The notes under the pieces were generated by a model that was not told the DNA's origin, did no database searches, and saw nothing but the letters and a program-made list of their open reading frames with translations. A DNA stretch of 64,000 nt from Hyphomicrobiales bacterium. Its GTDB lineage: Bacteria; Pseudomonadota; Alphaproteobacteria; Rhizobiales; Rhizobiaceae. The position numbers and the translations under genes are program-made. This document shows positions 13,192 to 64,000 of this stretch, one piece after another; the stretch's first letter is position 1, and every line of letters begins with the position of its first letter. The stretch is from NCBI GenBank assembly GCA_900465675.1, contig UBJR01000005.1:372001-436000 (forward strand), in the 5' to 3' direction.

Positions 13192-14367
13192 ATGACATCC
13201 GATCCGTCCCTCGCCGCCCTTGCCGAAGAGGCAAAGGGCTGGCGCCGTACCATTCATCAGCATCCGGAACTGCTTTTCGATCTGCCCGTGACATCAGCGC
13301 TCGTCATCGGCAAGCTGACATCCTTCGGCTGCGACGAGGTGGTCAGCGGCCTGGCGAAATCCGGCGTTGTCGCGGTCATCAACGGCAAGCTCGGCGCCGG
13401 CAAGACGATTGCGTTGCGCTGCGACATGGATGCGCTGCCGATGTCGGAACAGACCAACCTGCCGCATGCCTCCAAGGTCGAGAACATGATGCATGCCTGC
13501 GGCCACGACGGCCACACCGCCATGCTGCTCGCCACTGCCAAACATCTCGCCGCCAACCGCAACTTCGCCGGCAAGGCCGTGCTCATCTTCCAGCCGGCAG
13601 AAGAGGGCGGCGGCGGCGGCCGGGTAATGATCGAGGAAGGCGCGCTCGAACGCTTCGGCATCGAGGAAGTCTATGGCATGCATAACGAGCCCGGCCTTGC
13701 TGTCGGCTCCTTTGCCATCCGCAGCGGCCCGATCATGGCAGGCGGCGACCGTTTCATCATCACCATCAACGGCAAAGGTGGCCACGCAGCCTCGCCACAT
13801 CTCAGCCACGACCCGGTCATCGTCATGGCGCATATGATCACCGCGCTGCAGTCGATCACGTCGCGCTTCATCGATCCCTTCGATCCGGTGGTTCTTTCGA
13901 TCACCTATGTCAACGGCGGCAATGACCGGGCGCTCAACGTCATCCCGGCGGCCGTCCAGATCGGCGGCACCATCCGCACGATGCAGCCGGAGACGCGCAA
14001 GGCCGTCGAAGCGCGCTTCCGCGAGGTGGTGACGATGACCGCCAAGGTGTTTTCCGCCGAGGCCCAGATCGACTGGCGCCCCGGCTACCCGGTCACCGTC
14101 AACGATGTGGCAAAGACCAGGGTCGCGGTCGCCGCAGCCGAACGCGTGGCCGGCAAGGGGCGCGTGAACGACGACTACCCGCAGACCATGGGCTCGGAAG
14201 ATTTCTCCTACATGCTGGAGAAGCGCCCCGGCGCCTTCATCTGGCTCGGCAACGGCGATAGTGCGGACCTGCACAACCCCGCCTATGATTTCAACGACGA
14301 GGCGATCATCCACGGGGTCAACTATTGGCTGGCGCTGGTCGATCAGCAACTCGGGGCCAAGGGCTGA
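13192..14367 (+). CDS. M20-family amidohydrolase (hippurate hydrolase/IAA-amino acid hydrolase type)
   Basis: This 391-residue zinc enzyme hydrolyses N-acyl amino acids. Metal ligands are visible in MHACGHDGHTAM (Cys/His/Asp), EEGGGGGRVM and YGMHNEPG, and the late GSEDFSYM is also typical. The ATG at 13192 is chosen because CTGGAGG lies just upstream and the protein then begins like its relatives; an in-frame reading from 13021 would add 57 unlikely residues. The gene is followed 12 bases later by an Ldh-family reductase, so a free amino or imino acid released here may be used there. Confidence 0.9.
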   Translation: MTSDPSLAALAEEAKGWRRTIHQHPELLFDLPVTSALVIGKLTSFGCDEVVSGLAKSGVVAVINGKLGAGKTIALRCDMDALPMSEQTNLPHASKVENMMHACGHDGHTAMLLATAKHLAANRNFAGKAVLIFQPAEEGGGGGRVMIEEGALERFGIEEVYGMHNEPGLAVGSFAIRSGPIMAGGDRFIITINGKGGHAASPHLSHDPVIVMAHMITALQSITSRFIDPFDPVVLSITYVNGGNDRALNVIPAAVQIGGTIRTMQPETRKAVEARFREVVTMTAKVFSAEAQIDWRPGYPVTVNDVAKTRVAVAAAERVAGKGRVNDDYPQTMGSEDFSYMLEKRPGAFIWLGNGDSADLHNPAYDFNDEAIIHGVNYWLALVDQQLGAKG

Positions 14368-49810: not shown

Positions 49811-50803
49811 CTAGCGTTCGCGCTCGAACAGCGCGTCGGTTTCCTGCCACAGGGCATCAGGGATCGGCAGCTTCGCCCAATCGAGATTCTGCGCAATGCG
49901 CTCCGGCCGGCTCATGCCGAGAACGGCGGCGGAGACGTGTGGATTGCGGAAGGCGAACTGGATCGCTGCCGCCTGCAGGGGGACGCCGTGACGCTCGCAG
50001 ATCGCCTCGATCCGCTTGGCCCGGGCGACGACTTCCTCCGGCGGAGCACCGTAATCGAAGGTCGTGCCTGAATTGCCCGGACCCGTGGCGAGAATGCCCG
50101 AATTGAACACCCCGGCGACGACAATCTCGACACCCCGATGAGCAGCTTCCGGCAGCAGGTCGGCTTCAGCCGCCCGGTCGAGCAGGGTATAGCGCCCGGC
50201 CATCATGACAGCGTCGAGCGCGCAGGCCTTCATGAACCGTGTTGCAACATCGCTCTCATTGACGCCGACGCCGATCGCCTTGATGTGACCGGCCTTTCTG
50301 AGATCGTCGAGCGCCCGGTAGCAGCCTTCGACGGCCTCGTTGAAACGCCGCTCATAGGCATCCCCATGGGTGAAGCGATCGACATCATGGATATAGACCA
50401 GATCGAAATCGGCAATGCCGAGCCGGTTTGCCGATTGCTCGAGCGAACGCATCGTTCCGGCATAGCTGTAGTCGAAGAACGGCTTGAGGCGCAGCGGCGA
50501 GGCCCACAGACCGTAATCGACCTTCTCGCCATAGGGCGGCGCCATATAGCGGCCGGCCTTGGTGGAGACCGTGACGGTCTTGCGATCGATGGTTCGCAGG
50601 AAGGTGCCAAGGCGCAATTCGCTGAGACCGTGGCCATAGAGCGGCGCGGTGTCGAAATAGCGCATCCCGCCGTCAAAGGCGGCAGCCAGAACATCGGCCG
50701 CCTGCGCCTCGGTCACATCCCGGTAGAGCGTTCCGATGCCGCTCGCGCCGAAGCCGAGGCGGGAGGCAAAGCCGATCTTGCTCGAAGTCATAACCGCCGT
50801 CAT
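49811..50803 (-). CDS. Aldo/keto reductase (D-threo-aldose 1-dehydrogenase/L-fucose dehydrogenase type)
   Basis: The 330-residue NAD(P)-dependent enzyme has the AKR tetrad in YFDTAPLYGHG (Asp, Tyr), STKAGR (Lys) and VYIHDVD (His). The layout matches the AKR group that oxidises L-fucose, L-galactose or D-arabinose to lactones. The ATG at 50803 overlaps the stop of the amidohydrolase gene (ATGA). With that lactonase-like gene it would form the first two steps of oxidative sugar breakdown. Pyridoxal 4-dehydrogenase is an alternative in this group. Confidence 0.82.
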   Translation of the reverse strand: MTAVMTSSKIGFASRLGFGASGIGTLYRDVTEAQAADVLAAAFDGGMRYFDTAPLYGHGLSELRLGTFLRTIDRKTVTVSTKAGRYMAPPYGEKVDYGLWASPLRLKPFFDYSYAGTMRSLEQSANRLGIADFDLVYIHDVDRFTHGDAYERRFNEAVEGCYRALDDLRKAGHIKAIGVGVNESDVATRFMKACALDAVMMAGRYTLLDRAAEADLLPEAAHRGVEIVVAGVFNSGILATGPGNSGTTFDYGAPPEEVVARAKRIEAICERHGVPLQAAAIQFAFRNPHVSAAVLGMSRPERIAQNLDWAKLPIPDALWQETDALFERER

Positions 50804-51675
50804 GCCCGGTCCTCCCCAAAGCCTGGAAGCCGGTAGACCTCGATCGCGTTCAGTCCGAAGATCCGCTCCCGCTCGGCGCTCGACAGATCCTTGAGGCATT
50901 CCTGCAGCGCCTCGACGACACGGTCGTAGCTTGCCGCTACCAGGCAAACCGGCCAGTCGGTGCCGAACATGCAGCGATCGGTGCCGAAGACATCGAGCAC
51001 TTCATGGACGTAGGGCTTCAGGTCCTCAGGCGTCCAGCTCTGCCAGTTGGCTTCCGTCACCATGCCGGAGACCTTGCACCAGACGTGGTCACGTTGCCCT
51101 TTGAACTGGCGGATCAGCACCGCCCATTCGTCGAAACCGCCATTGCGGATTTCTGGCTTCGAGATGTGGTCGAGCACGAAGCGCGTTTCAGGGAAGGCTT
51201 CCACTGTCGCGATGCAGGAGGGCAGTTGCGGCAGGTTCGGCACGAGGTCATAGACGAGCCCGGCAGCCTCGACAGCTTCCAGGCCCTTCTTCACGTCATC
51301 GCGCAGCAGCCAGTTCGGGTCACTTTCCGTCTGGATAAGGTGCCGGACGCCGACCAGCCACTTGCCCTGAGGCGACGATTGCAGTTCGGCAAGCGTCTGG
51401 ACGAGTTTCGGATCGGTCAGATCCACCCAGCCGACGACGCCGGCGACGAAATCCGTCGCCTCCGCCGTCCTGATGAAATCCCAGGTCTCGCCGAGATCGT
51501 TCCAGGTCTGCACCAGAACGGTTCCGTTGACGCCATTCTTCTGTAGAGCCGGGCGCAGGTCGTCCGGCTCGAACACGCGGTTGATCGGTTCGAAGGGGCC
51601 GCTCAGCCAGCCATAATCGCCACCGCTTTTGGGATCCCAGAAGTGATGATGGGAATCGATGATCGGGCTTGTCAT
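50800..51675 (-). CDS. Amidohydrolase_2-family lactonase (L-fuconolactonase-like)
   Basis: The 291-residue TIM-barrel hydrolase has DSHHHFWD at the N-terminus, LDHISKP in the middle and FGTDWPV near the C-terminus, as in L-fucono-1,5-lactonase and related lactonases. The start MTSPIIDSHHHFWDP is usual. It lies between two aldo/keto reductase genes, 12 bases after the first on this strand. It should open the lactone made by one of them to an aldonic acid. Confidence 0.84.
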   Translation of the reverse strand: MTSPIIDSHHHFWDPKSGGDYGWLSGPFEPINRVFEPDDLRPALQKNGVNGTVLVQTWNDLGETWDFIRTAEATDFVAGVVGWVDLTDPKLVQTLAELQSSPQGKWLVGVRHLIQTESDPNWLLRDDVKKGLEAVEAAGLVYDLVPNLPQLPSCIATVEAFPETRFVLDHISKPEIRNGGFDEWAVLIRQFKGQRDHVWCKVSGMVTEANWQSWTPEDLKPYVHEVLDVFGTDRCMFGTDWPVCLVAASYDRVVEALQECLKDLSSAERERIFGLNAIEVYRLPGFGEDRA

Positions 51676-52819: not shown

Positions 52820-54031
52820 GTGCGATCACTTGTTTTGGGAGGCATTTCTCTAGCGCTTAGCCTCGGCGCGTCACTGCAAATGGCATCGGCTGAAGACACG
52901 ATCAAGATCGGTGTCGTGGCCGCAGAATCCGGCGCTTTCGTCTCGGCCGGTCACACCTTGCCGGCGGGCGTTGGCCTAGCGGTCAAGGAAATCAACGACG
53001 CGGGAGGCGTCAAGGTTGGTGACAAGACCTACAAGGTCGAGATGGTGAAGCGCGACGACCGCACAGACATCTCCACCGCCATTGCCGCGACCCAGGAACT
53101 GGTTCGCGATGAAAAGGTTTCGGCGATCTTCGGTTCGGAAACCCACGACTTTACATTGGCGATGACCAAGATCACCCAGCCTGCCAAGGTGATCCAGTTT
53201 GCCGGCAACAGCACGCTGGCAAAAATCCTGAACCCGCAGTCCGTCGCCCCCGGCGCCGAAGACCATTACCTCTTCCAGTCCGAGCCGCAGGAATTCCAGC
53301 GCTCCGGCTCAACGGCCCGCGGCGTTCTCAGCCTGCTGACCCCGCTCGTCGGCCACCCGCTGAAAAAGTCTGTGGTCATCGTCGGCAATGACGCGACCGG
53401 CCAGTTCCTGACCTCCTATTACGTCAAGGCACTGAAGGCCGAAGGACAGGAAGTGCCTGAAGTCATCTCCTATCCGCCCGACACCACCGACTTCTCGCCG
53501 TTCCTGACGCGCGCCAAGAGCCTGAACCCTGACGTCGTGCACTTCTGGTACAACGGCGACTCGACGCTGACGGCCCTGCCGCAGGCGCTCGAACTCGGCG
53601 TTGCCCCCAGCTACTTCCTGTTCGGCGTCGACCCGGGCATCTGGAAGGAACGAGGCCTGACCGCCGACGTGCCGGTCGCCATGAGCTGCGTGCCGATCTG
53701 CTGGGGTGAATCTTCCAACGCCAATGCGAAGACCTATTTCAAGGCCTACTTCGCTGCCGGCGCACCGAAGGGCGTAACTTCCTCGGTCTCGCTGCTCTAC
53801 TACGACTATGTCCATATGCTCGCCGAAGCCTGGACCAAGGCCGGTTCGCTCGATCCGGACAAGACCGTCGCAGCCCTGGAATCGCTCCATCACAAGGGCG
53901 TGGTTTCCGATGACCTCTCCTTCAACAAGAGCCATCAGGTGACGCACGCAACCGAGGTCTGCGCTGCAGCACCGGGCGGCGACATCTCCTGCGCGATGCA
54001 GCAGCCACCCGCCGAAGCCCCCGCGGAATAA
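52820..54031 (+). CDS. Liv-type ABC transporter periplasmic binding protein
   Basis: This 403-residue protein starts at GTG 52820 with GGGAGG before it; a longer in-frame reading passes through the promoter and is rejected. It has a Sec signal (LVLGGISLALSLGASLQMASAED) and a Peripla_BP_6 fold (IGVVAAESGAFVSAG, KSVVIVGNDATGQFL). The family binds branched amino acids, amides, aromatic acids or other carboxylates. It leads the operon that ends with larA, so a hydroxy or sugar acid is a fair guess for its ligand. Confidence 0.88.
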   Translation: MRSLVLGGISLALSLGASLQMASAEDTIKIGVVAAESGAFVSAGHTLPAGVGLAVKEINDAGGVKVGDKTYKVEMVKRDDRTDISTAIAATQELVRDEKVSAIFGSETHDFTLAMTKITQPAKVIQFAGNSTLAKILNPQSVAPGAEDHYLFQSEPQEFQRSGSTARGVLSLLTPLVGHPLKKSVVIVGNDATGQFLTSYYVKALKAEGQEVPEVISYPPDTTDFSPFLTRAKSLNPDVVHFWYNGDSTLTALPQALELGVAPSYFLFGVDPGIWKERGLTADVPVAMSCVPICWGESSNANAKTYFKAYFAAGAPKGVTSSVSLLYYDYVHMLAEAWTKAGSLDPDKTVAALESLHHKGVVSDDLSFNKSHQVTHATEVCAAAPGGDISCAMQQPPAEAPAE

Positions 54032-54045
54032 ACTGCCGATGCGCC

Positions 54046-54070
54046 TCCCGCCGGCCCCCTGCGCCGGCGG
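54046..54070. terminator. Intercistronic hairpin after the Liv binding protein
   Basis: CCCGCCGGC and GCCGGCGGG form a perfect 9-base stem with a 7-base loop, followed by ACTTTCG. It lies between the binding-protein gene and the first permease gene and may raise the ratio of binding protein to transporter. Confidence 0.62.
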
Positions 54071-54132
54071 GACTTTCGTCATTGAAAGCGGACGCGCCTG
54101 ACGCGCAGTCCCCGTAACAGCGGAACAGAGCT

Positions 54133-55002
54133 GTGGACATTCTCATTCAGCAAATCCTCAACGGCCTGTCGATCGCGAGCGTCATCACGCTGATCGCCGT
54201 CGGGGTCACCTTGATCTTCGGCCTGACCGGCATCATCAATTTCGCGCATGGCGAATTCCTGATGGTCGGCAGCATCGTCACTTGGCTTGCCGTGCAAGCC
54301 GGCCTCGGATTCTTCATCGCTCTCGTGCTCGCCGTCCTTGCCGTCGGCGTCATGGGCTTCGTGCTTGAACGCGGGCTGTTTCGCTTCACGCTGACGCGGC
54401 CGACCAATGGCTTCATCGTCTCGCTCGGGCTGATCGTCGTGCTGCAGCACATCGTCATCTTCTTCTACGATCCGAACCAGAAGAGCATTCCACGCCCGCT
54501 GACCGGCATCTGGGATATCGGCGGCGTCCGCATCGCCTCGGTTCGCGTCATGGTCATTCTCGTCACCATCGCGGTCGTGGCACTGACCTTCGCCATGGTC
54601 ACCCGCAGCCGCTATGGACGCGCGCTGCGCGCCGCCGTCGATGATCGCGATACGGCTGCACTGATGGGCATCCCGGTCCGTCGCTACATCACCGGTGTCT
54701 TCGTGCTCGGCAGCGCCCTTGCCGGTCTCGGCGGCGCGTTGCTCATCGCCCTCTTCCCGATCACGCCGTTCACCGGCGGCACCATGGTGATGAAGGGTTT
54801 TGCCGTGGCGCTGATCGGCGGCCTCGGAAACCTGACCGGTGCTGTCGTCGCCGGCCTGATTCTCGGCATCGTCGAAGGCTTCAGCGCCGGCTACGGCTTC
54901 TCCGCCTGGACAGACGCCTATTCCTTCGCCCTGATGATCCTGGTTCTGCTCTTCCGCCCGAATGGACTGTTCGGCGGCACGAGCGGCCCGAAAATGGCCT
55001 GA
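54133..55002 (+). CDS. livH: Liv-type ABC transporter permease
   Basis: The 289-residue permease starts at a GTG and has eight helices. GLTGIINFAHGEFLMVGS and the loop RSRYGRALRAAVDDRDTAALMGI are hallmarks of LivH. It pairs with the LivM-like permease that follows after 19 bases. Confidence 0.92.
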   Translation: MDILIQQILNGLSIASVITLIAVGVTLIFGLTGIINFAHGEFLMVGSIVTWLAVQAGLGFFIALVLAVLAVGVMGFVLERGLFRFTLTRPTNGFIVSLGLIVVLQHIVIFFYDPNQKSIPRPLTGIWDIGGVRIASVRVMVILVTIAVVALTFAMVTRSRYGRALRAAVDDRDTAALMGIPVRRYITGVFVLGSALAGLGGALLIALFPITPFTGGTMVMKGFAVALIGGLGNLTGAVVAGLILGIVEGFSAGYGFSAWTDAYSFALMILVLLFRPNGLFGGTSGPKMA

Positions 55003-55021
55003 CGCGCGAAAGGCACATGCT

Positions 55022-56041
55022 ATGAACAATTCACTTTCGTCGCTCCGCTCACTGATACCGGCTCTGGTCGTGCTGGCGATCCTTGCCTTCGTCCCGACGC
55101 TTGGCGCCAGCAACCGTATGCTGTCGCTGGCGATCTCGGCCGGCATCAACATCGTCGCGCTCTATGGCCTCTCGGTGCTGTTCGGCCAGACCGGTATCCT
55201 CTCCATGGGCCATGCGGCCCTTGTCGGCGTCGGCGCCTATGCGGCGGCGCTGCTTGCCCGCGATACCGGCATCAGCTTCTGGGTGGCACTGCCGCTTGGC
55301 GGCATCGCCGCTGCCGCCTTCGCGGCCATCATCGGCGTCCCCTCGCTGCGCGTCTCCGGCCACCACTTCGTCATCATGACCTTCGCCTTCGGCCAGCTGC
55401 TGACCATCGTTCTGACAAATGGCGGTGATTTCACCGGTGCCGCGACTGGGCTCGACCTGCAATTGCCGGTCAGCTTCTTCGGCATGCGTCTCGATGATCT
55501 CGTCCCCTATTATTTCGTCGTGCTGGCCTTCGTGGCACTCAGCGCCATCGCCAGCTGGGGGATCATCAACTCGCCCTATGGCCGGACGCTGCGCGCCATC
55601 CGCGAAAACGAGAAACTGGCCGCCTCGCTCGGCATCAATGTCGGCCGCCACAAGATCGGCGCCTTCATCGTCAGCGGCGTCTTTGCCGGTGTCTCGGGCG
55701 TGCTGCTCGCCTATTTCCTGCGGCACATCTCGCCCAGCCAGTTCTCCTCCTTCCCGAGCATCTATTTGGCGCTGATGGTGATGATCGGCGGCGCGCGCCT
55801 GCTGCTCGGGCCGATCGCCGGCGGCATTCTCGTCTCCTTCCTGCCTGAGGTCCTGAACCTCGATCCCGTCGAATCCCGAATCCTCTACGGCGTCTGCCTG
55901 ATCGCCGTCATCCTGCTGCTCCCGAACGGCCTGATCGCCGGCCTCATCGACGGCTGGAACAGGCTCGTTCGCGGCCCGGCGCAAAAGCAGGCGTCGCGCC
56001 AGGCGGCAACTGCCACGCATGCTTCGGAGGCAGGCCGATGA
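55022..56041 (+). CDS. livM: Liv-type ABC transporter permease
   Basis: The 339-residue permease has about ten helices with FGQTGILSMGHAALVGVGAYAAA and the loop NSPYGRTLRAIRENEKLAASLGI, typical of LivM. The ATG at 55022 is the natural start. It overlaps the LivG gene by four bases. The C-terminal tail is polar and rich in Ala and Gln. Confidence 0.92.
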   Translation: MNNSLSSLRSLIPALVVLAILAFVPTLGASNRMLSLAISAGINIVALYGLSVLFGQTGILSMGHAALVGVGAYAAALLARDTGISFWVALPLGGIAAAAFAAIIGVPSLRVSGHHFVIMTFAFGQLLTIVLTNGGDFTGAATGLDLQLPVSFFGMRLDDLVPYYFVVLAFVALSAIASWGIINSPYGRTLRAIRENEKLAASLGINVGRHKIGAFIVSGVFAGVSGVLLAYFLRHISPSQFSSFPSIYLALMVMIGGARLLLGPIAGGILVSFLPEVLNLDPVESRILYGVCLIAVILLLPNGLIAGLIDGWNRLVRGPAQKQASRQAATATHASEAGR

Positions 56042-56760
56042 ACGCCATTCTTGAGATCAGCGGACTGAAGAAGCAGTTCGGCGGCGTCACAGCACTATCC
56101 GGTGTCGACCTGTCGATCGAAGAGGGCGAGATCCTCGGCATCGTCGGCCCGAACGGTTCCGGCAAGACGACGCTCTTCAACGTCATCACCGGCGTCTACC
56201 GGCCGACCGAGGGGCATGTCCGCTGGCGCGGGCGGGATATCACCAGTCTCGCCGCCCATGAAGTGTCGGGCGCCGGTATCGGCTACACCTTCCAGCAGGC
56301 CATGGCCTTTCCGGGCCTCACCGTCTGGGAAAACGTCCAGATCGCCTGCGAGCATGCGCGCAAGACGAGCCGACCCTATCCCTGGACAACGCCCGCCGCC
56401 CTGCTCGATTTCGTCGGACTGACGGCGCTCGCAAATGAGCGCGCCGGCGTTTTGCCCTTCGGCAATCTGCGTCTCCTCGGCATCGCGCTGGCGCTCGCCA
56501 CGCGGCCCTCGCTAATCCTGCTTGATGAGCCGGCGGCAGGCCTGAACGACAAGGAAACCGCAACGCTGGTCGGGCTGGTCAAGCAGTTCCCGGCCCACGG
56601 CATCAGCGTCTGCGTCATCGATCACGACATGAAGCTGATGCAGATGCTCTGCAAGCGGCTGGTCGTCCTCGATTTCGGCTCGAAGATCGCCGACGGGCCG
56701 ACACAGGACGTTCTTTCCAATCCGAAGGTGCTCGAAGTCTATCTCGGAGGTGCGCTGTGA
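56038..56760 (+). CDS. livG: Liv-type ABC transporter ATP-binding protein
   Basis: The 240-residue ATPase has Walker A GPNGSGKTT and Walker B LILLDEPAAGLND with VIDHDMKLM. The signature motif is degenerate: LPFGNLRLLGIALAL where relatives read LSYGxQRRLEIARAL. It may still work in a heterodimer with LivF, whose signature is intact. It overlaps both neighbours by four bases. Confidence 0.9.
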   Translation: MNAILEISGLKKQFGGVTALSGVDLSIEEGEILGIVGPNGSGKTTLFNVITGVYRPTEGHVRWRGRDITSLAAHEVSGAGIGYTFQQAMAFPGLTVWENVQIACEHARKTSRPYPWTTPAALLDFVGLTALANERAGVLPFGNLRLLGIALALATRPSLILLDEPAAGLNDKETATLVGLVKQFPAHGISVCVIDHDMKLMQMLCKRLVVLDFGSKIADGPTQDVLSNPKVLEVYLGGAL

Positions 56761-57485
56761 ACCTGCTCGATGTTTCCAATGTAACAACAGGGTATGGCCC
56801 AACGGTCGTCAACCGCGATGTCTCCGTCACGCTCGGCGAGAACGAGGTGATCACCATTCTCGGCCCGAACGGCGCTGGCAAATCGACTTTGCTGCGCACC
56901 ATCGTCGGCCTCGTCAAACCGCGCGCGGGAACGATCAGCTTCGCCGGCGAAAACGTGACGGGCCGTACGCCCGATATCATGGCCAAGCGCGGTGTGGTTC
57001 TCGTGCCGGAAGGACGGCGGATCTTCGGCGACATGACCGTCGAGGAAAACCTGCGTCTTGGCGCCTATGCGCGGCGTGACACCGACGCTGTCGAAGCCGA
57101 CGTCAAGACGATGGAGCGCTTCTTCCCGATCCTTGCCACCAAGCGGCAGCAGAAGGGCGGCTCGCTGAGCGGCGGCCAGCAGCAGATGCTGGCGATCGCC
57201 CGCGGCCTGATGGCGAGACCCCGCGTGCTGCTGCTCGACGAGCCGTCGCTCGGGCTTTCCCCGCTGCTCGTCAAGGAAATCCAGACGATCATTCTCGACA
57301 TCGGCAAGACCTTCAACGCCTCCGTTCTACTGGTCGAGCAGAATGCCGGCCTGGCGCTTTCCGTCGCCACCCGCGGCTATCTGATGCAGAACGGCCGCAT
57401 CGCGACGTCGGGGCCGATCGCAGAACTCAAGGACATGTCGCTGATGCGCGAGCTCTATCTCGGCGGCGTGGCGGAGCAGGTGTGA
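56757..57485 (+). CDS. livF: Liv-type ABC transporter ATP-binding protein
   Basis: The 242-residue ATPase has Walker A GPNGAGKST, signature LSGGQQQML, Walker B VLLLDEPSLGLSP and VEQNAGLAL, all intact. The length and C-terminus (MRELYLGG) fit LivF. Its stop overlaps the possible GTG start of larA, so transport and racemase genes are coupled. Confidence 0.92.
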   Translation: MNLLDVSNVTTGYGPTVVNRDVSVTLGENEVITILGPNGAGKSTLLRTIVGLVKPRAGTISFAGENVTGRTPDIMAKRGVVLVPEGRRIFGDMTVEENLRLGAYARRDTDAVEADVKTMERFFPILATKRQQKGGSLSGGQQQMLAIARGLMARPRVLLLDEPSLGLSPLLVKEIQTIILDIGKTFNASVLLVEQNAGLALSVATRGYLMQNGRIATSGPIAELKDMSLMRELYLGGVAEQV

Positions 57486-57487
57486 CG

Positions 57488-58774
57488 ATGGACACGATCG
57501 CTCTTTCCTACGGCCGCGGCCATCTCGACATCACGCTTCCGCCGGGCGCCCGGCCGACGGTGATCCGCAAGCAGCAACTGCCGAAACTCGCCGATGGCAA
57601 GGCGGCGGTGATCGAGGCGCTGCGCCATCCGGTTGCCTCCAAACCTCTTGCTGACCTTGCAAAGAACCGCCAAAGCGCCTGCATTCTGATCTGCGACATC
57701 ACCCGGCCGGTGCCGAACCGGCTGTTTCTGCGCCCGATGATCGAGACGATGATCGCGTCGGGCATTCCGCAGGAGAAGATTTCGGTGCTGGTCGCCACCG
57801 GCCTGCACCGGCCGAATCTCGGCGATGAGCTGGCCGAACTGGTCGGCGATCCCTGGGTGCTCGAAAATGTCCGCGTCGAAAACCACTATGCCAGAGACGA
57901 GGACGCCCATATCGATTTCGGCTTCACCAAGACGCGGAACACGCCGGTCAAGCTCGATCGGCTGTTTGCCGAGGCCGATCTCAGGATCGCCACCGGCCTT
58001 GTCGAGCCGCATTTCATGGCAGGCTGGTCGGGCGGACGAAAGGTCATTGCCCCGGGCGTTGCCCATCACGAGACGATCCGGACATTCCACTCGGCACGCT
58101 TCATGGAAGACCCGCTGGCCGTCCAATGCAATCTGATCGGCAATCCACTGCACGAGGAGCAGCTGGAAATCGTCCGGATGCTCGGTGAGGTCTATGCGTT
58201 GAATACCGTGCTGGATGAGGATCGCGATCTCGTCTGCGTCACCTTCGGCGAGATCATCGCCAGCCATCAGGCGGCGGTCGATTTCGTCAGCGGCGCGACA
58301 CAGATCCCTCTCGACCGGAAGTTCTCCACCGTCATCACCTCTTCGGCCGGCTATCCGCTCGACAAGACCTACTATCAGACCATCAAGGGCATGGTGACGC
58401 CGCTCGATATCCTGAAGCCCGGCGGCACGCTGATCATCGCGTCGGAATGTTCGGAAGGCTTCGGTTCACCGGAATTCCGCGAGGCGCAGGCAAGACTGGT
58501 CGAGCTCGGACCCGATCGGTTCCTGGCGACGCTGACGGCAAAGAGCCTAGCAGAGATCGACGAGTGGCAGACGGAGATGCAGTTGAAGCCGATGCGGCTC
58601 GGCAGCGTCGAGCTCTATACGACCGGTCTTTCGGGCGACGACCGGACGCTGACAGGCGTCGGCATGATCGACGATATCGAGACGGCAATCGCCCGCAGCA
58701 TCAGCGCCAACGGCGATGCCGATGTCGCCATCATCCCGGAGGGGCCTTATGTCGTGCCTCGATATGCGGCGTGA
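57488..58774 (+). CDS. larA: LarA-family nickel-pincer racemase/epimerase
   Basis: This 428-residue protein belongs to the LarA (DUF2088) family. Residues matching Lactobacillus plantarum LarA, counted from this ATG, are R73 (TRPVPN), H107 (ATGLHRP), H175 (VEPHF), K185 (GGRKVIAPG; joins the cofactor) and H201 (TFHSAR; nickel ligand), so it should bind the nickel-pincer nucleotide and move a hydride at a 2-hydroxy acid. A GTG at 57482 is a possible start. It is the last gene after livF in the importer operon. The substrate may be lactate, malate, an aldonate or another 2-hydroxy acid; LarA relatives vary widely. Confidence 0.9.
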   Translation: MDTIALSYGRGHLDITLPPGARPTVIRKQQLPKLADGKAAVIEALRHPVASKPLADLAKNRQSACILICDITRPVPNRLFLRPMIETMIASGIPQEKISVLVATGLHRPNLGDELAELVGDPWVLENVRVENHYARDEDAHIDFGFTKTRNTPVKLDRLFAEADLRIATGLVEPHFMAGWSGGRKVIAPGVAHHETIRTFHSARFMEDPLAVQCNLIGNPLHEEQLEIVRMLGEVYALNTVLDEDRDLVCVTFGEIIASHQAAVDFVSGATQIPLDRKFSTVITSSAGYPLDKTYYQTIKGMVTPLDILKPGGTLIIASECSEGFGSPEFREAQARLVELGPDRFLATLTAKSLAEIDEWQTEMQLKPMRLGSVELYTTGLSGDDRTLTGVGMIDDIETAIARSISANGDADVAIIPEGPYVVPRYAA

Positions 58775-58778
58775 GTGC

Positions 58779-59525
58779 TTAACGATGAAGGTTGGCGTCG
58801 CGCAACTCTTCGAAGCGCGCGGTGCTCTTCGACAGGTGATTGCGCAGCGCCTTGCGGGCGGCCGCTTCGTTGCCGTCGCGGATCGCGGCGAAAATCGCAT
58901 GGTGCTCCTTGCGCATCCGCTCGGCATGCTGCTCGCGCCCGGCCGCCGTCATCTTGTCGAGCCGGGCCCACTGGCGCGGCACCATCGCATTGCCGAACGT
59001 GTCGAACAGCCGTCCGTAATAGGAATTCTGCGTCGCAACGAGGATCGAGCGATGGAAGGCAAAGTCTTCCTCGGCGCCATAGCCGCCTTCGGCTATCGCC
59101 CGGTCCAGCGCATCGAGCCGGTCCTGCATGCGGACGATATCCTCCGGCGTGCGCCGGAGCGCCGCGAGACCGGCAGCCTCATATTCGATGCCGAGGCGCA
59201 ATTCGAGAACCCGCAGCACCTCGTCGATCGATTCCAGATCGTTGGGGATGATCGAAAAGGAACGCGGCGTCGGATCGTTGGAAACGAAGGCGCCGAGCCC
59301 CTGGCGGGTCGTAATCAAGCCTTTCGCACGCAACGTCGCAAGCGCCTCACGCACGATCGTGCGGCTGACGCCCGTCGCTTCCATGATCGCCTGCTCGGTC
59401 GGCAGCCGCTGGCCGGGCTTCAGATCGCCGGACTCGATCTGGGCGATCAGGCTGTCAGCCAGCCCGCTGCGCAGATTCGGCGTCTGCGGGATGGTGTTGA
59501 AAACGGCGTTGTCCCTGTCCTTCAT
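58779..59525 (-). CDS. GntR-family regulator with FCD domain
   Basis: The 248-residue protein starts at ATG 59525. It has a winged helix (LPTEQAIMEATGVSRTIVREALATL) and an FCD domain with histidines in FAFHRSILVATQN, EEHHAIFAAI-like KEHHAIFAAI and LRNHLSKS. It lies between larA and the larCEB operon, convergent with larA. It is the natural repressor for both through the palindrome at the importer promoter. No copy of that palindrome is seen in the 125-base gap before the larCEB operon. Confidence 0.87.
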   Translation of the reverse strand: MKDRDNAVFNTIPQTPNLRSGLADSLIAQIESGDLKPGQRLPTEQAIMEATGVSRTIVREALATLRAKGLITTRQGLGAFVSNDPTPRSFSIIPNDLESIDEVLRVLELRLGIEYEAAGLAALRRTPEDIVRMQDRLDALDRAIAEGGYGAEEDFAFHRSILVATQNSYYGRLFDTFGNAMVPRQWARLDKMTAAGREQHAERMRKEHHAIFAAIRDGNEAAARKALRNHLSKSTARFEELRDANLHR

Positions 59526-59650
59526 GCTGTCGCGACGTCCATTCTCGCCGTCAGGCGGCGGCCGGGGAATAATGCCGTTGCTACCGCATACCAGCACAAA
59601 AAGCAAAAGCCCGCCCGGCGGGGATAACCAGAACGAACGGGGAGGAAAGA

Positions 59651-60568
59651 ATGAAAGAGAAAATCGGCTTCATCGGTCTCGGTGCAATGGGATCAGGCAT
59701 GGCGGCCAATCTGCTGTCGAAAGGCTGGCCGCTGACCGTCATGGCCCACAGAAAGCGCGAGGCCGTCGAGCAGTTGAAGGCGCAGGGCGCCAGCGAAGCG
59801 GCGACGCCCAAGGCACTGGCGCTGGCATCGGATGTGGTGGTGCTCTGCGTCACCGGTTCCGAGGAAGTTCAGCAACTCCTGTCCGGTCCAGATGGCCTGC
59901 TCGCCTCCGGAAGGCGGATGCTTTTGATCGACTGCTCGACCTCCAACCCCGCCGTGACGATCAAGCTCGCTGCCGAACTTTCCGAGCAGGGCATCACGCT
60001 CGTCGATGCGCCACTCGCCAGAACGCCGAAGGAAGCAGCCGAAGGCAAGCTGGATGTGATGGCGGGAGGCTCTGCCGATGGCATTGCCCGCGCCCGGCCG
60101 ATCCTCGAAGCCTTCGCCGCCCGAATCATCGAGACCGGCCCTGCTGGCACCGGGCACACGATGAAGCTGCTCAACAACTTCGTGTCGATGGGTTACTCGG
60201 CGATCTATTCGGAAGCATTGATGATCGCCGCGAAGGCCGGGTTGACGCCTCAGGTATTCGACAGCGTGCTGCGCGGCAGCCGCATGGATTGCGGTTTCTA
60301 CCAGGCCTTCTTCGAATTCGTGTTGAACCGCAACGAAAACGCTCAGCGCTTTGCCATGGCCAACGCATTGAAGGACATGTCCTATCTGGCATCGCTGGCC
60401 CAAGCGCTTCAGGCGGTAAATCCGGTCGGCGCAGCCGTGCGCAACAGCTTTGCGACGGCGGTCGCCGCTGGCCATGGCCAATCCTTCGTGCCGGCCCTTT
60501 CGGATGTCATCGCGGCTGCAAACGGTGTCTCGCTGACTGAAGCAGCGGACGGAAAACAGGGCGGATGA
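59651..60568 (+). CDS. 3-hydroxyisobutyrate dehydrogenase-family NAD(P) oxidoreductase
   Basis: The 305-residue protein has IGFIGLGAMGSGMAANLL at the N-terminus for the dinucleotide and the catalytic lysine region HTMKLLNNFVSMG. The usual DAPVSGG substrate loop reads DAPLARTPKEA, so it is a divergent member. Relatives act on 3-hydroxyisobutyrate, tartronate semialdehyde, threonate or other beta-hydroxyacids. Its stop overlaps the larC start (ATGA), placing it at the head of the cofactor operon; it may oxidise a product or isomer made by LarA. Confidence 0.86.
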   Translation: MKEKIGFIGLGAMGSGMAANLLSKGWPLTVMAHRKREAVEQLKAQGASEAATPKALALASDVVVLCVTGSEEVQQLLSGPDGLLASGRRMLLIDCSTSNPAVTIKLAAELSEQGITLVDAPLARTPKEAAEGKLDVMAGGSADGIARARPILEAFAARIIETGPAGTGHTMKLLNNFVSMGYSAIYSEALMIAAKAGLTPQVFDSVLRGSRMDCGFYQAFFEFVLNRNENAQRFAMANALKDMSYLASLAQALQAVNPVGAAVRNSFATAVAAGHGQSFVPALSDVIAAANGVSLTEAADGKQGG

Positions 60569-61857
60569 CCGTGCTGGAAATTCACCTCGACCCCGTCGGC
60601 GGCATTGCAGGCGACATGTTCGTCGCAGCCCTGCTCGATCTCAGGCCGGACCTGAATACCGGCTTGCAGGCGGCGCTGAAACGCTGCCCGCTGATCGAAG
60701 ACGTCGGGTGCGAACTTGTGGCGCATCACGACGGCGTGCTGACCGGCAGCCGCTTCAAGGTGCATCATACTGAGCATGGGACGGATCACCCGCATGATCA
60801 CCATCATCATGACCATCACGGCCACCATCATCATGATCACGGTCATGCGGAGCACGATCACAGCCATGCAGGGCATCACCATCACGTCGCCTGGCGGGAC
60901 ATCCGCGATGCCCTGAGCCGTTCGGCGCTCGGCGGAGACACCATCCGCCACGCGACCGGCATCTTCGAAAAGCTGGCGGAAGCCGAAGCCAAGGTCCACG
61001 GCACGACACCCGAAGACATTGCCTTTCACGAGGTTGGCGCCTGGGATTCGATCGCCGACATCGTCTCTGCCGCCTGGCTGATAACGCAACTCGGCGCAGC
61101 GCATTGGAGCGTTGGTCCGGTCCCGCTCGGAAGCGGCCGGGTGAAGACCTCGCATGGACTGCTCCCGGTTCCGGCGCCGGCGACCGTGCACCTGCTAAAG
61201 GATTTCGATGTCATCGATGACGGGATCGGCGGCGAGCGCGTGACGCCAACGGGTGCCGCTATCCTTGCTTATCTTTGCGGGACAAAGACCGCACCCGGCC
61301 GAAGGGTCCTGAAGGCATCAAGCCATGGCTTCGGCACCAAGCCGCTCCCCGGCATCAGCAACTGCCTGCGGCTCCTGGCCTTCGAGCGCCGCGACGAGGT
61401 ATCAGGCTTCAACGGCACGGTGGCGGTGCTCGAATGCGAGATCGACGACCAGACTGGCGAAGACATCGCCCAGGCCGTCGACCGGCTGCGTAACCGGCCG
61501 GATGTGCGCGACGTCGTCCAGATGCCGGTCTTCGGCAAGAAGGGCCGGATGATGACCCATCTCCGGGTGCTTGCCGACCCATCGAAAAGCAGGGATGTCG
61601 CCGCCGCCATGCTCGACGAAACGACAACCATCGGCGTGCGCGCCACGACGGCTGAGCGGATGACGCTGAGCCGCGAGCAGGAAACGGTCGAGCACGCAGG
61701 AAAGATCTACGCCTTCAAGCTCGTCGACCGCCCCTCGGGCCGCACCGCCAAGCTCGAAGCCGACAACCTGACATCCACCCCGGGTGTCGCGGCACGCAAC
61801 AGCCTGAGGAGTCTTCTGGAGGGGCTGTTGAAACAAAAGAGAGGAGACCTGTTGTGA
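60565..61857 (+). CDS. larC: Nickel-pincer cofactor nickel-insertion protein LarC (unsplit, His-rich)
   Basis: This 430-residue protein inserts nickel into the pincer nucleotide using CTP. The start LDPVGGIAGDMFVAALLD (near residues 8-25), AFHEVGAWDSIADIV and the C-terminal part are typical of LarC/DUF111. In L. plantarum LarC is made by a programmed frameshift from two frames; here it is one continuous frame. Residues 67-107 hold 24 histidines in 41 positions, likely a nickel store or chaperone segment. It overlaps larE by four bases. Confidence 0.94.
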   Translation: MTVLEIHLDPVGGIAGDMFVAALLDLRPDLNTGLQAALKRCPLIEDVGCELVAHHDGVLTGSRFKVHHTEHGTDHPHDHHHHDHHGHHHHDHGHAEHDHSHAGHHHHVAWRDIRDALSRSALGGDTIRHATGIFEKLAEAEAKVHGTTPEDIAFHEVGAWDSIADIVSAAWLITQLGAAHWSVGPVPLGSGRVKTSHGLLPVPAPATVHLLKDFDVIDDGIGGERVTPTGAAILAYLCGTKTAPGRRVLKASSHGFGTKPLPGISNCLRLLAFERRDEVSGFNGTVAVLECEIDDQTGEDIAQAVDRLRNRPDVRDVVQMPVFGKKGRMMTHLRVLADPSKSRDVAAAMLDETTTIGVRATTAERMTLSREQETVEHAGKIYAFKLVDRPSGRTAKLEADNLTSTPGVAARNSLRSLLEGLLKQKRGDLL

Positions 61858-62645
61858 GAAAGGCTCTGGAGGAATGTCTCGCCTCGCTCGGCGACGTCTC
61901 GATCGCGGTCAGCGGCGGTATCGATTCGCTGACGCTGGCGGTCATTGCAACCCGGCTTCTCGGACCCGCACGCGTCAACATCATGCACGCGGTCTCGGCG
62001 GCGGTCCCCGGAGAGGCCACCGAACGCGTCAGGATGCTGGCGGACAGCGAGGGCTTTGACCTCGAGATTATCGATGCCGGCGAATTATCCGATCCGGATT
62101 ATCTCCGGAACCCCGTCAACCGCTGCTTCTTCTGCAAGGGCAATCTCTACGGTGCCATCGCCGCCCGGTCGAACCGTCAGCTGCTGTCGGGGACCAATCT
62201 CGACGATCTCGGCGAGTACCGGCCGGGGCTTGAGGCGGCCAAGAATTTCTCCGTCCGCCATCCCTTCGTCGAGGCCGGTATCGGCAAGCAGGCTGTGCGC
62301 CAGCTGGCGCGCGACGCGGGCCTCGGCGCGCTGTCGGAGCTGCCGGCCTCCCCCTGCCTCTCCAGCCGGATCGAAACCACGATCGCCATCGAGCCGGAAA
62401 TGCTGGAGGCCGTGCACCGGATCGAGACGTTCCTGACCGAGACGCTCAGACCTCAAACCGTCCGCTGCCGCATCAGGCGCAGCGGCATCGCCATCGAGCT
62501 TGATCGCGATGCGCTGGCACTGGCAACGGCAATGAACGACGTCGGCAACGACCTGCGCGGCATGCTGCCCGGCGCCTACAGGAACGGTCCGCTGACCTTC
62601 GAGCCATACCGCAATGGCAGCGCTTTCGTCGGTGCCAGGCCATGA
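61854..62645 (+). CDS. larE: Sulfur-transferring cofactor protein LarE
   Basis: The 263-residue PP-loop enzyme (SGGIDS at 20-25) activates the nucleotide and gives sulfur to the pincer cofactor. NRCFFCKGNLY (C91, C94) and SPCLSSR with C168 are family motifs; C168 matches the sacrificial cysteine of L. plantarum LarE. C205 is the only later cysteine, so a three-cysteine cluster of the type seen in iron-sulfur LarE proteins is not evident; this suggests the sacrificial mechanism. It starts at GTG overlapping larC. Confidence 0.93.
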   Translation: MRKALEECLASLGDVSIAVSGGIDSLTLAVIATRLLGPARVNIMHAVSAAVPGEATERVRMLADSEGFDLEIIDAGELSDPDYLRNPVNRCFFCKGNLYGAIAARSNRQLLSGTNLDDLGEYRPGLEAAKNFSVRHPFVEAGIGKQAVRQLARDAGLGALSELPASPCLSSRIETTIAIEPEMLEAVHRIETFLTETLRPQTVRCRIRRSGIAIELDRDALALATAMNDVGNDLRGMLPGAYRNGPLTFEPYRNGSAFVGARP

Positions 62646-63304
62646 CCGGCGATGCCGTCTTCGATTTCGCCCGGGCCGAGCGCATCGGCCTCAGCGAAGC
62701 CGTATTCTGTGCGGGCAAGACGCCGCAGCAGATTGCGGCGATCCTTCGAAGCGCCAGCGAGCGGGATGCCGGTCTGCTGCTCACGCGCCTCGACGACCAG
62801 AAGTTCGCGGCGCTCCCGAGTGAATTGAAGCCCGCCACGGACTGGTGCCCGCTGTCGCAAACCGCATTTTTCGGCCCGGTTCCGCCGGTATCCTTGACCC
62901 AAACCGTCGCGATCGTCGCAGCCGGAACCTCGGACGCACCGGCCGCCCGGGAAGCCGAGCGGACCCTTCGCCACGCAGGCGTCGAGGCATCCGTCATCAT
63001 CGATGTCGGGGTTGCCGGGCTCTGGCGGCTGATGGACAGGATCGAGGAGATCCGCCGCTTTCCCGTGGTCATCGCCGTTGCCGGCATGGACGCGGCGCTC
63101 GCAAGCGTTCTCGGCGGTCTGTACGGCGGCAGCCTGATCTGCGTGCCGACCTCGGTCGGCTATGGCGCGGCCGAAGAGGGCCGCACCGCACTCAACGCCA
63201 TGCTGGCCAGCTGCGCGCCGGGCATCGTCGTCACCAATATCGACAACGGCTACGGCGCCGCCTGCGCGGTGCTCCGCATGCTTGGTGTCATGAAGCTTCG
63301 CTGA
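62642..63304 (+). CDS. larB: Nicotinate-nucleotide carboxylase/hydrolase LarB
   Basis: The 220-residue protein carries out the first cofactor step, carboxylating nicotinic acid adenine dinucleotide. The C-terminal PurE-like part has AAGTSD (93-98), VAGMDAALASVLGGL (146-160), CVPTSVGYG (167-175) and TNIDNGYGAA (198-207). It completes larC, larE and larB in one operon, overlapping larE by four bases. The order differs from the L. plantarum operon. Confidence 0.94.
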   Translation: MTGDAVFDFARAERIGLSEAVFCAGKTPQQIAAILRSASERDAGLLLTRLDDQKFAALPSELKPATDWCPLSQTAFFGPVPPVSLTQTVAIVAAGTSDAPAAREAERTLRHAGVEASVIIDVGVAGLWRLMDRIEEIRRFPVVIAVAGMDAALASVLGGLYGGSLICVPTSVGYGAAEEGRTALNAMLASCAPGIVVTNIDNGYGAACAVLRMLGVMKLR

Positions 63305-63338: not shown

Positions 63339-64000
63339 TCAGGCAGCGTCCACAGTCAGCTGCGTCTGCTCGCCGAGACCGTCGATGCCGAGCTTTATCG
63401 TCTGCCCGGCCTTCAGGAACAGCGGCGGCTTCATGCCGAGGCCGACGCCCGGCGGCGTGCCCGTCGAGATGATATCGCCCGGCTGCAGGCTCATGAACTG
63501 CGAGATGTAGTGAACGAGGAAGGAGACGCCGAAGATCATCGTCTTCGTCGAGCCGTTCTGGCGCATCGTGCCATCGACGGACAGCCACATCTTCAGGTCT
63601 TGCGGATCGGCGATCTCGTCGCGCGTTACCATCCATGGGCCGATTGGGCCAAAGCTGTCGGCCGACTTCCCCTTGGTCCACTGCCCGCCGCGCTCGGCCT
63701 GAAATTCGCGCTCCGAAACGTCGTTGATCAGGCAGTAGCCGGCAACATGTTTCATCGCGTCGGCTTCCGAAACATAGCGGGCCTCGTCGCCGATGACGAT
63801 GCCGAGCTCGACTTCCCAGTCGGTCTTCTTCGACTTGCGCGGGATGATGACGTTGTCGTTCGGGCCGGTGATGGCGCTGGTGGCCTTCATGAACAGGATC
63901 GGCTCTTCGGGAATGGCCGCACCGGTCTCGGCAGCGTGGTCTGCATAGTTCAGGCCGACGCAGATGAACTTGCCGGTGCGCGAGACGCAGGGGCCATACC
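63339..64000 (-). CDS. Fumarylacetoacetate hydrolase-family protein (partial, 5' end outside window)
   Basis: The frame stays open to the right edge and reads, for example, FICVGLNYADHAAETG and then WEVELGIVIGD, INDVSEREFQ and GTPPGVGLGM, all family motifs; 219 complete codons, or 220 counting the stop, are in view. Members include 2,4-diketo-3-deoxy-L-fuconate hydrolase, which gives pyruvate and lactate, and ureidoglycolate lyase. With the AKR and fuconolactonase-like genes 12 kb away this fits oxidative 6-deoxysugar breakdown; the dehydratase and second dehydrogenase would be beyond the edge. Confidence 0.85.
   Translation of the reverse strand, partial: YGPCVSRTGKFICVGLNYADHAAETGAAIPEEPILFMKATSAITGPNDNVIIPRKSKKTDWEVELGIVIGDEARYVSEADAMKHVAGYCLINDVSEREFQAERGGQWTKGKSADSFGPIGPWMVTRDEIADPQDLKMWLSVDGTMRQNGSTKTMIFGVSFLVHYISQFMSLQPGDIISTGTPPGVGLGMKPPLFLKAGQTIKLGIDGLGEQTQLTVDAA

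Follow-up and report, generated by a model that had tools for sequence, protein, structure and literature searches.

A nickel-pincer 2-hydroxyacid racemase system beside putative L-fucose-type sugar genes in a rhizobial genome

A 64,000-nucleotide stretch from a Hyphomicrobiales bacterium (assembly GCA_900465675.1, contig UBJR01000005.1, C15 in our numbering, positions 372001-436000; hereafter the window) carries a full gene set for a nickel-pincer nucleotide (NPN)-dependent racemase, larA, larC, larE and larB, among genes resembling those of L-fucose catabolism. The host genome comprises 6.25 Mb in 49 contigs. We give about an even chance to the reading that LarA racemises the 2-hydroxy-acid product of the flanking sugar pathway, lactate or glycerate. 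The basis in hand consists of the genes, the residues, a predicted fold, a conserved gene order and an operator-like palindrome common to the flanking sugar genes. On this basis the enzyme system would be of a known kind, and its regulatory and metabolic setting new. The central block of genes is as follows.

52820..54031, + strand: periplasmic binding protein (SBP) of a Liv-type ATP-binding cassette (ABC) importer; Peripla_BP_6, 165 bits
54133-55002, 55022-56041, 56038-56760 and 56757-57485, + strand: livH, livM, livG and livF; open reading frames (ORFs) named by sequence and conserved order
57482 (GTG) or 57488 (ATG) to 58774, + strand: larA, putative NPN-dependent 2-hydroxyacid racemase resembling the short-chain aliphatic group (SAR)
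58779..59525, − strand: GntR/FCD regulator 1; Pfam GntR and FCD above cut-off
59651..60568, + strand: gene of the beta-hydroxyacid dehydrogenase (beta-HAD) family; NAD_binding_2 and NAD_binding_11
60565..61857, + strand: larC, a single ORF with LarC1 and LarC2; TIGR00299, 178 bits (cut-off 90), and NF052512, 105 bits (cut-off 50)
61854..62645, + strand: larE, CXXC-C type; TIGR00268, 234 bits (cut-off 150)
62642..63304, + strand: larB; NF033503, 250 bits (cut-off 175)

A preliminary description of this DNA had reported complete larA, larC, larE and larB genes here, which the domain and family scores confirm. It had also put larA last in a Liv-type importer operon, a GntR gene in between and the cofactor genes after a beta-HAD-like gene, in agreement with the coordinates above. 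The SBP-livH-M-G-F operon spans 52820-57485, and with the GTG at 57482 as its start codon larA overlaps it by 4 bp; the livM start (55022) and the start codons of the Liv operon were chosen by us. Overlaps of 4 bp also occur at each junction of beta-HAD, larC, larE and larB. Comparison of the binding protein with the PDB was tried for its ligand and gave only distant matches (best 54 bits).

Both domains of LarA score above the Pfam cut-offs (Lar_N, 185 bits; LarA_C, 54 bits), and larA is the sole Lar_N match in the host genome (E 0.001). From the ATG at 57488 the protein carries D70, R73, H107, H175, K185, H201, Y296, Q297 and K300; the five residues named in the preliminary description (R73, H107, H175, K185 and H201) are exact in this numbering. 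All nine catalytic, cofactor and carboxylate residues were invariant in 83/83 related rows, among them K185 and H201, whose loss in relatives was looked for. The rows stand for 81 distinct places, two loci having been fetched twice (L047/L172 and L044/L175), and leave out the larA fragments of two genomes (G466 and G488) and a larA remnant in a third (G440, see below).

The pocket of LarA reads F176-M177-W360-Q361, with F, W and Q each present in 83/83 rows and M in 82/83. Passages of two papers associate F-F-W-E/Q with lactate racemases, Leu-Met or Phe-Met with the SAR group, a lysine with malate racemases and, usually, E-V-A-H with gluconate epimerases (PMC11770544, PMC7583248). SAR group 2, described in PMC7583248 by a Leu-Met or Phe-Met loop and a bulky hydrophobic pocket, corresponds here to F176-M177 and W360. 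LarA of Isosphaera pallida prefers L-lactate and 2-hydroxybutyrate, then L-glycerate, according to a passage of PMC11851776. From this preference together with the F-M-W-Q pocket a small aliphatic acid is therefore expected, and LarA would fit the broad short-chain 2-hydroxyacid racemase type with a substrate the size of lactate or glycerate. The substrate range given in the preliminary description thus narrows: a complete NPN-type LarA system stands, whereas malate, phenyllactate and gluconate appear unlikely under the quoted pocket rules, by which these three and 2-hydroxyglutarate were dropped as candidates.

In NCBIfam searches the nickel-dependent lactate racemase model NF033504 ranked first with 333 bits, under its cut-off of 460, followed by malate racemase models; the name lactate racemase was not accepted at this score. 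The miss says little on lactate activity, because the assayed I. pallida racemase also falls under the cut-off (408 bits). The I. pallida racemase also provides the nearest solved structure (PDB 9eia/9eid), at 40% identity over 424 columns. An AlphaFold model of LarA (mean predicted local distance difference test score, pLDDT, 85.6) matches it with Z 44.5-44.9 over 418-420 residues, and lactate and malate racemase structures with Z 40-45.

The NPN biosynthesis set is complete, LarB, LarC1 with LarC2, and LarE all scoring above curated cut-offs. The larC translation holds a His-rich segment. LarE contains C91, C94 and C168 in a CXXC-C motif, which a passage of PMC9283937 ties to a [4Fe-4S] cluster in Thermotoga LarE. 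With this motif, LarE is therefore unlikely to be the single-use sulfur donor that Lactobacillus LarE is.

The sugar genes lie on both sides of the central block. Those inside the window, with the palindrome discussed below, are the following.

49811..50851, − strand: akrF, aldo/keto reductase; best PDB matches are L-galactose dehydrogenases, 102 bits; kept in 12/15 complete loci (see below)
50800..51675, − strand: amidohydrolase, L-fucono-1,5-lactonase-like (FucB); NF052480, 199 bits, under the cut-off of 400; PDB 4dlf/4dnm, 148 bits
51688..52674, − strand: akr2, second aldo/keto reductase; Pfam Aldo_ket_red, 229 bits
52768..52780: palindromic operator GTTGTACGACAAC, 13 bp, between akr2 and the SBP-liv-larA operon
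63339..64000, − strand: FAH-family hydrolase, L-2,4-diketo-3-deoxyrhamnonate/fuconate hydrolase-like (FucG), cut by the window end; PDB 8gsr, 301 bits; NF053535, 393 bits, under the cut-off of 500

The 4dlf group is taken by us to be L-fucono-1,5-lactonase. AkrF has no NCBIfam match at 1e-20; from its PDB matches it appears to be L-galactose/L-fucose dehydrogenase-like and would take step 1 of the flanking sugar pathway. The next 14 kb past the window end (L111) continue the set. A short-chain dehydrogenase/reductase (SDR) on the − strand has its best matches in human BDH2 (314 bits) and in the FucF structures 8y11/8xwk/8y4j (287-290 bits), given in a passage of PMC11199699 as Herbaspirillum L-2-keto-3-deoxyfuconate 4-dehydrogenase. 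It is followed on the same strand by a second GntR/FCD regulator and a GlcD-family flavin adenine dinucleotide (FAD) dehydrogenase, and on the + strand by a glyoxalase I gene above its cut-off. Then come a four-gene sugar ABC importer (−) and, on the + strand, genes for a GMC oxidoreductase and a glycerate-2-kinase-like protein, the latter at 252 bits against a cut-off of 550. The FAD dehydrogenase matches an uncharacterised oxidoreductase best (376 bits); human D2HGDH comes next with 321, vs 161 for mouse LDHD, and the gene would be assignable only as a GlcD-family D-2-hydroxyacid dehydrogenase. An L-fuconate dehydratase gene (551 bits to 2hne/1yey) lies on the same contig, about 170 kb off. 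It adjoins a second keto-deoxy-fuconate-dehydrogenase-like SDR, 60% identical to the first (L127:6202-8228; C15 about 602-604 kb).

Passages of PMC11199699 and PMC6336799 describe route III, in which L-fucose is converted to pyruvate and L-lactate; from the chemistry it follows that L-galactose would yield L-glycerate by the same route. From the annotated genes we infer that the block runs such a non-phosphorylating pathway for L-fucose, and probably for L-galactose.

Relatives of the locus were taken as the best 80 of 382 confirmed loci, with some of the neighbours annotated, so that genes for other substrates may have escaped notice, and with several loci ending at contig ends near larA. The complete block SBP-livHMGF-larA-gntR-HAD-larC-larE-larB was found in 15/80, in Rhizobium, Kaistia, Phyllobacterium and other Rhizobiales, so the search for the same order in other rhizobia was positive. 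Because these 15 loci keep the complete block, its gene order is beyond chance. In 15/15 of them livF and larA overlap or are separated by at most 20 bp. Within the fetched stretches, 14 of them carry the second GntR, 13 the FAD dehydrogenase, 13 the SDR, 12 the lactonase and aldo/keto reductases and 10 the hydrolase. LarA itself is patchily distributed: within the genus it was found in 14/148 genomes, in two of these only as fragments or pieces, and in the order search in 10/397 genomes drawn from a larger group, own genome included. Among the 148, the SDR ortholog (E 1e-100) is present in 11 genomes and akr2 in 12, all of them also LarA-positive; for akr2 only homologs of at least 85% identity were counted, a weaker one (about 62-67%) being found in most of the 148. 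In the twelfth genome (G513) the FucF-like SDR lies in two reading frames (L174:3108-3657), as if frameshifted, and the binding-protein gene is also in two pieces.

The palindrome, which is conserved across families, was found in near-identical form at three promoters of the block: as GTTGTACGACAAC before the importer-larA operon, as GTTATCATACAAC at L111:3196, in the gap separating the FAD dehydrogenase gene from the glyoxalase gene, and as TTTGTACGACAAC at L111:8594, in that separating the gene of the sugar-binding protein from the GMC gene. With double-fetched places merged (17 rows to 16; 30 rows to 22), GTTGTACGACAAC is exact in 15/16 distinct akr2/SBP intergenic regions of relatives, with one mismatch in the other, and exact in 3/3 Phyllobacterium SBP upstream regions that lack akr2. 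The GTTATCATACAAC site is identical in 22/22 distinct places, and the TTTGTACGACAAC site has at most one mismatch in 12/12. Shuffled regions, which preserve base content only, gave at most one mismatch in 5/1180, a figure that is no independent test, given the relatedness of the rows and the choice of the motif from the same sequences. The weight of the operator lies in its position and conservation. The promoter between gntR and beta-HAD has no operator within one mismatch (0/20 rows), and neither do the regions before the second lar clusters (L032, L034 and L035) and the L044/L175 operon. We infer that the importer-larA operon and the sugar genes are under the joint control of one GntR of the block; the putative owner of the shared operator is likely the GntR encoded with the FAD dehydrogenase. 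The beta-HAD-larCEB operon, with no operator in its promoter, may be under separate control by GntR 1.

Three genomes provide natural deletions. In one Rhizobium (G440) larA is down to an in-frame remnant of both ends (L169:11318-11445 and 13214-13306; contig C67) and larC-larE-larB are gone; the locus is otherwise intact from the reductases to the sugar importer, and the Liv importer, GntR and beta-HAD genes persist. The only larB found there lies on contig C2 in a second cluster, larA-larC-larE-larB. In G488 larCEB is missing between beta-HAD and the hydrolase gene, and the only larB found adjoins another larA end. In G466 a fragment of larA was found, and larB gave no match. Judging from these deletions, larA and larCEB tend to go together, and the rest of the block can dispense with its local copy; the cofactor would then probably come from elsewhere in the genome. 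As a separate observation, larA of G488 is found only in pieces (L170 and L171; contigs C8, C9 and C14), mostly where contigs end, as though the assembly had been broken by near-identical copies.

A course of events may be proposed from these genes. LarB, LarE and LarC would make the nickel-pincer nucleotide, which would load LarA; the enzyme would then racemise a short-chain 2-hydroxy acid via proton-coupled hydride transfer. The route-III genes would convert L-fucose (or L-galactose) to pyruvate and L-lactate (or L-glycerate), and LarA would interconvert the L and D acids, passing the D form to the D-2-hydroxyacid dehydrogenase of the block or, for glycerate, to a D-glycerate kinase. In an extended form, which is possible but more tentative, LarA would be the stereochemical adaptor of a sugar regulon. 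It would turn L-lactate from L-fucose and L-glycerate from L-galactose into D forms, both drained by one D-2-hydroxyacid dehydrogenase and D-glycerate kinase, with the cofactor coming in trans from a second lar cluster, a supply suggested by two Rhizobium genomes.

Several observations weigh against LarA serving the sugar pathway. LarA shares only 40% identity with the closest enzyme that has been assayed, and the tree, in which the two characterised rows stand on very long branches (8.5 and 10 changes per column), does not place it among characterised LarA enzymes. The dehydratase is not within the block and has no operator within two mismatches before it. The operator was first noticed in these sequences and tested afterwards, and its exact pattern GTTRTNNNAYAAC occurs at 4 places in the 6.25 Mb genome (2 in the block) vs 8 for the backward control, so it is not over-represented. 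The FAD dehydrogenase is nearer to D-2-hydroxyglutarate than to D-lactate enzymes. The glycerate-kinase-like gene adjoins the GMC gene in only 4/13 stretches viewed, the window's included; two of the 13 end soon after the GMC gene and one short of it, where absence of the kinase is not demonstrable. Three Phyllobacterium loci keep the lar block, and the aldo/keto reductases, lactonase and hydrolase are absent from the fetched stretch. The host genome also has a flavin mononucleotide (FMN) L-lactate dehydrogenase gene above its subfamily cut-off, because of which the LarA step is possibly redundant: L-lactate may be usable without it.

The same Phyllobacterium loci, with importer and larA and no sugar-oxidising genes nearby, speak for a different role of the importer. 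It may take up one external 2-hydroxy acid for LarA to epimerise, the sugar pathway being a co-regulated neighbour only, and the tight livF-larA junction in 15/15 complete loci agrees with this, as does one row (G436/L044) in which a sugar-type ABC importer accompanies larA-larC-larE-larB and a glycerate-kinase-like gene. We consider this account unlikely, though a serious contender: the operator of the importer-larA promoter is common to sugar genes, G440 keeps importer, GntR and beta-HAD despite losing larA and larCEB of the block, and close LarA relatives are also found without nearby Liv genes. The import-plus-epimerise unit of the preliminary description is borne out in its catabolic setting; for the reasons just given it is not simply a free-standing unit. 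Far less probable, we think, is a passenger role, in which mobile lar genes happened to settle in a sugar locus without any tie to its metabolism. Patchy presence in 14/148 genus genomes and the intermixing in the tree of larA copies from different contexts fit a passenger, but the same gene order, and the operator at the importer-larA promoter, are conserved across Rhizobium, Kaistia and Phyllobacterium.

Two further accounts change the substrate. The pathway itself contains another 2-hydroxy acid, L-fuconate, and gluconate is epimerised by some LarA homologs in the published passages, so LarA could be a C2-epimerase of a pathway aldonate; the window pocket F-M-W-Q differs from the E-V-A-H usual for gluconate in those passages, and we regard this as very improbable. 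Least probable of all seems a route defined by the beta-HAD, sulfolactaldehyde-like or through another 3-hydroxyacid, with LarA acting on its 2-hydroxy acid. This beta-HAD indeed has 3-sulfolactaldehyde reductase as its closest PDB match, at 137 bits, ahead of tartronate semialdehyde reductase at 127 bits; with the former it has R123, N174 and S178 in common, positions that presumably bind the sulfonate in that enzyme, and G440 retains it despite having lost the larA and larCEB of the block. Among the block genes annotated, however, none was recognised as a sulfonate gene, and the LarA pocket is without the extra lysine that the quoted pocket rules give for malate racemases.

On the beta-HAD itself, it was noted that motifs ART and NN...S replace SGG and NQ of tartronate semialdehyde reductases, resembling 3-sulfolactaldehyde reductase; ART recurs in all compared Liv-block copies except L061, where the pattern was unmatched. 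Unlike the tartronate semialdehyde reductases near larA in Accumulibacter-type loci, the beta-HAD does not carry the SGG motif. The GMC oxidoreductase by the sugar importer (L111:8730-10337) is present in 12/13 stretches and has no obvious role in the L-fucose route; the thirteenth stretch has no match to it nor to the sugar importer genes.

Related larA genes are also found in other settings. Close relatives of LarA occur without Liv genes nearby; larC lies within 300 bp of larA in 30/80 loci, and outside the Liv context larC, larE and larB often follow larA directly. Glycerate-kinase genes are near larA in 9/80 loci, four MOFRL-type and five GlxK-type. In L032 and L044 the MOFRL-type kinase-like gene comes immediately behind larB; those of the MOFRL type that were tested score below the NCBIfam cut-off. 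In L098, the sole GlxK locus tested, both the kinase and a tartronate semialdehyde reductase are above cut-offs. A lutA-like gene and lutB are near larA in 4/80 loci (L080, L085, L088 and L094), shortly before larC-larE-larB-larA; LutB is above cut-off in both loci tested, and the LutA call rests on a CCG domain and the place before LutB, with no LutA NCBIfam model among the hits. A candidate lutC ORF beside them was unlike LutC and was dropped. Because in the tree the GlxK loci sit together in one part, as do the lut loci, these contexts count as few independent cases. The glycerate-kinase and lut contexts agree on lactate and glycerate. In Rhizobium sp. BK376 (L033 and L035) the larA of the Liv block and that of a second cluster are sisters (100/99), and the respective larC are 67% and 54% identical to that of the window, which suggests that larA was exchanged between the two lar loci. 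One locus titled Mycobacterium sp. KBS0706 (L048) has a larA grouping with Inquilinus (100/99), and this genome label looks doubtful.

No paper on this arrangement was among the matches listed in an open-access library, subscription papers and supplementary tables lying outside the search. Rhizobia and alphaproteobacteria were not named in the main texts of the LarA papers searched for those words, and fucose is absent from the searched main texts except for PMC11851776, where it is a crystal additive and occurs in one reference only. Passages of PMC11770544 and PMC7583248 report mostly in vitro activities of nickel-pincer racemases, with native substrates often uncertain according to their authors. 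Here a single metabolic role, testable by growth and induction, is indicated by gene order, by the conservation of the operator and by deletions found in nature, in plant-associated bacteria where such racemases have hardly been discussed so far. If true, a lactate-handling step would be added to bacterial L-fucose catabolism.

Of the known systems, I. pallida LarA (LarAH2/SAR) is alike in fold, in the checked catalytic, cofactor and carboxylate residues, in the Met at the second loop position and in the pocket Trp and Gln; it has Leu at the first loop position, whereas LarA of the window has Phe, together with a sugar-linked gene context. The lar system of Lactobacillus plantarum likewise has LarA, LarB, LarC and LarE. 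Its racemase pocket is F-F and T in place of F-M and Q, its LarE is described in the source passages as single-Cys in place of CXXC-C, and LarC of the window is one ORF, unlike that of L. plantarum. LarE of Thermotoga maritima, a [4Fe-4S] sulfur insertase in the passage seen, shares the CXXC with a distant third cysteine; organism and context differ, and here a cluster would be predicted from the motif.

In Lactobacillus, larA and the cofactor genes form one operon. The arrangement in the window, as the preliminary description had pointed out, is different: larA and larCEB are two transcription units, with the divergent GntR and the beta-HAD gene between them. Route III of Herbaspirillum huttiense (FucA-C, F and G) is paralleled by FucB, FucF and FucG homologs, a FucA-like aldo/keto reductase and an unlinked FucC. 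In comparison with that route, the window block has its dehydratase outside and adds a nickel racemase system, a Liv-type importer and a D-2-hydroxyacid dehydrogenase.

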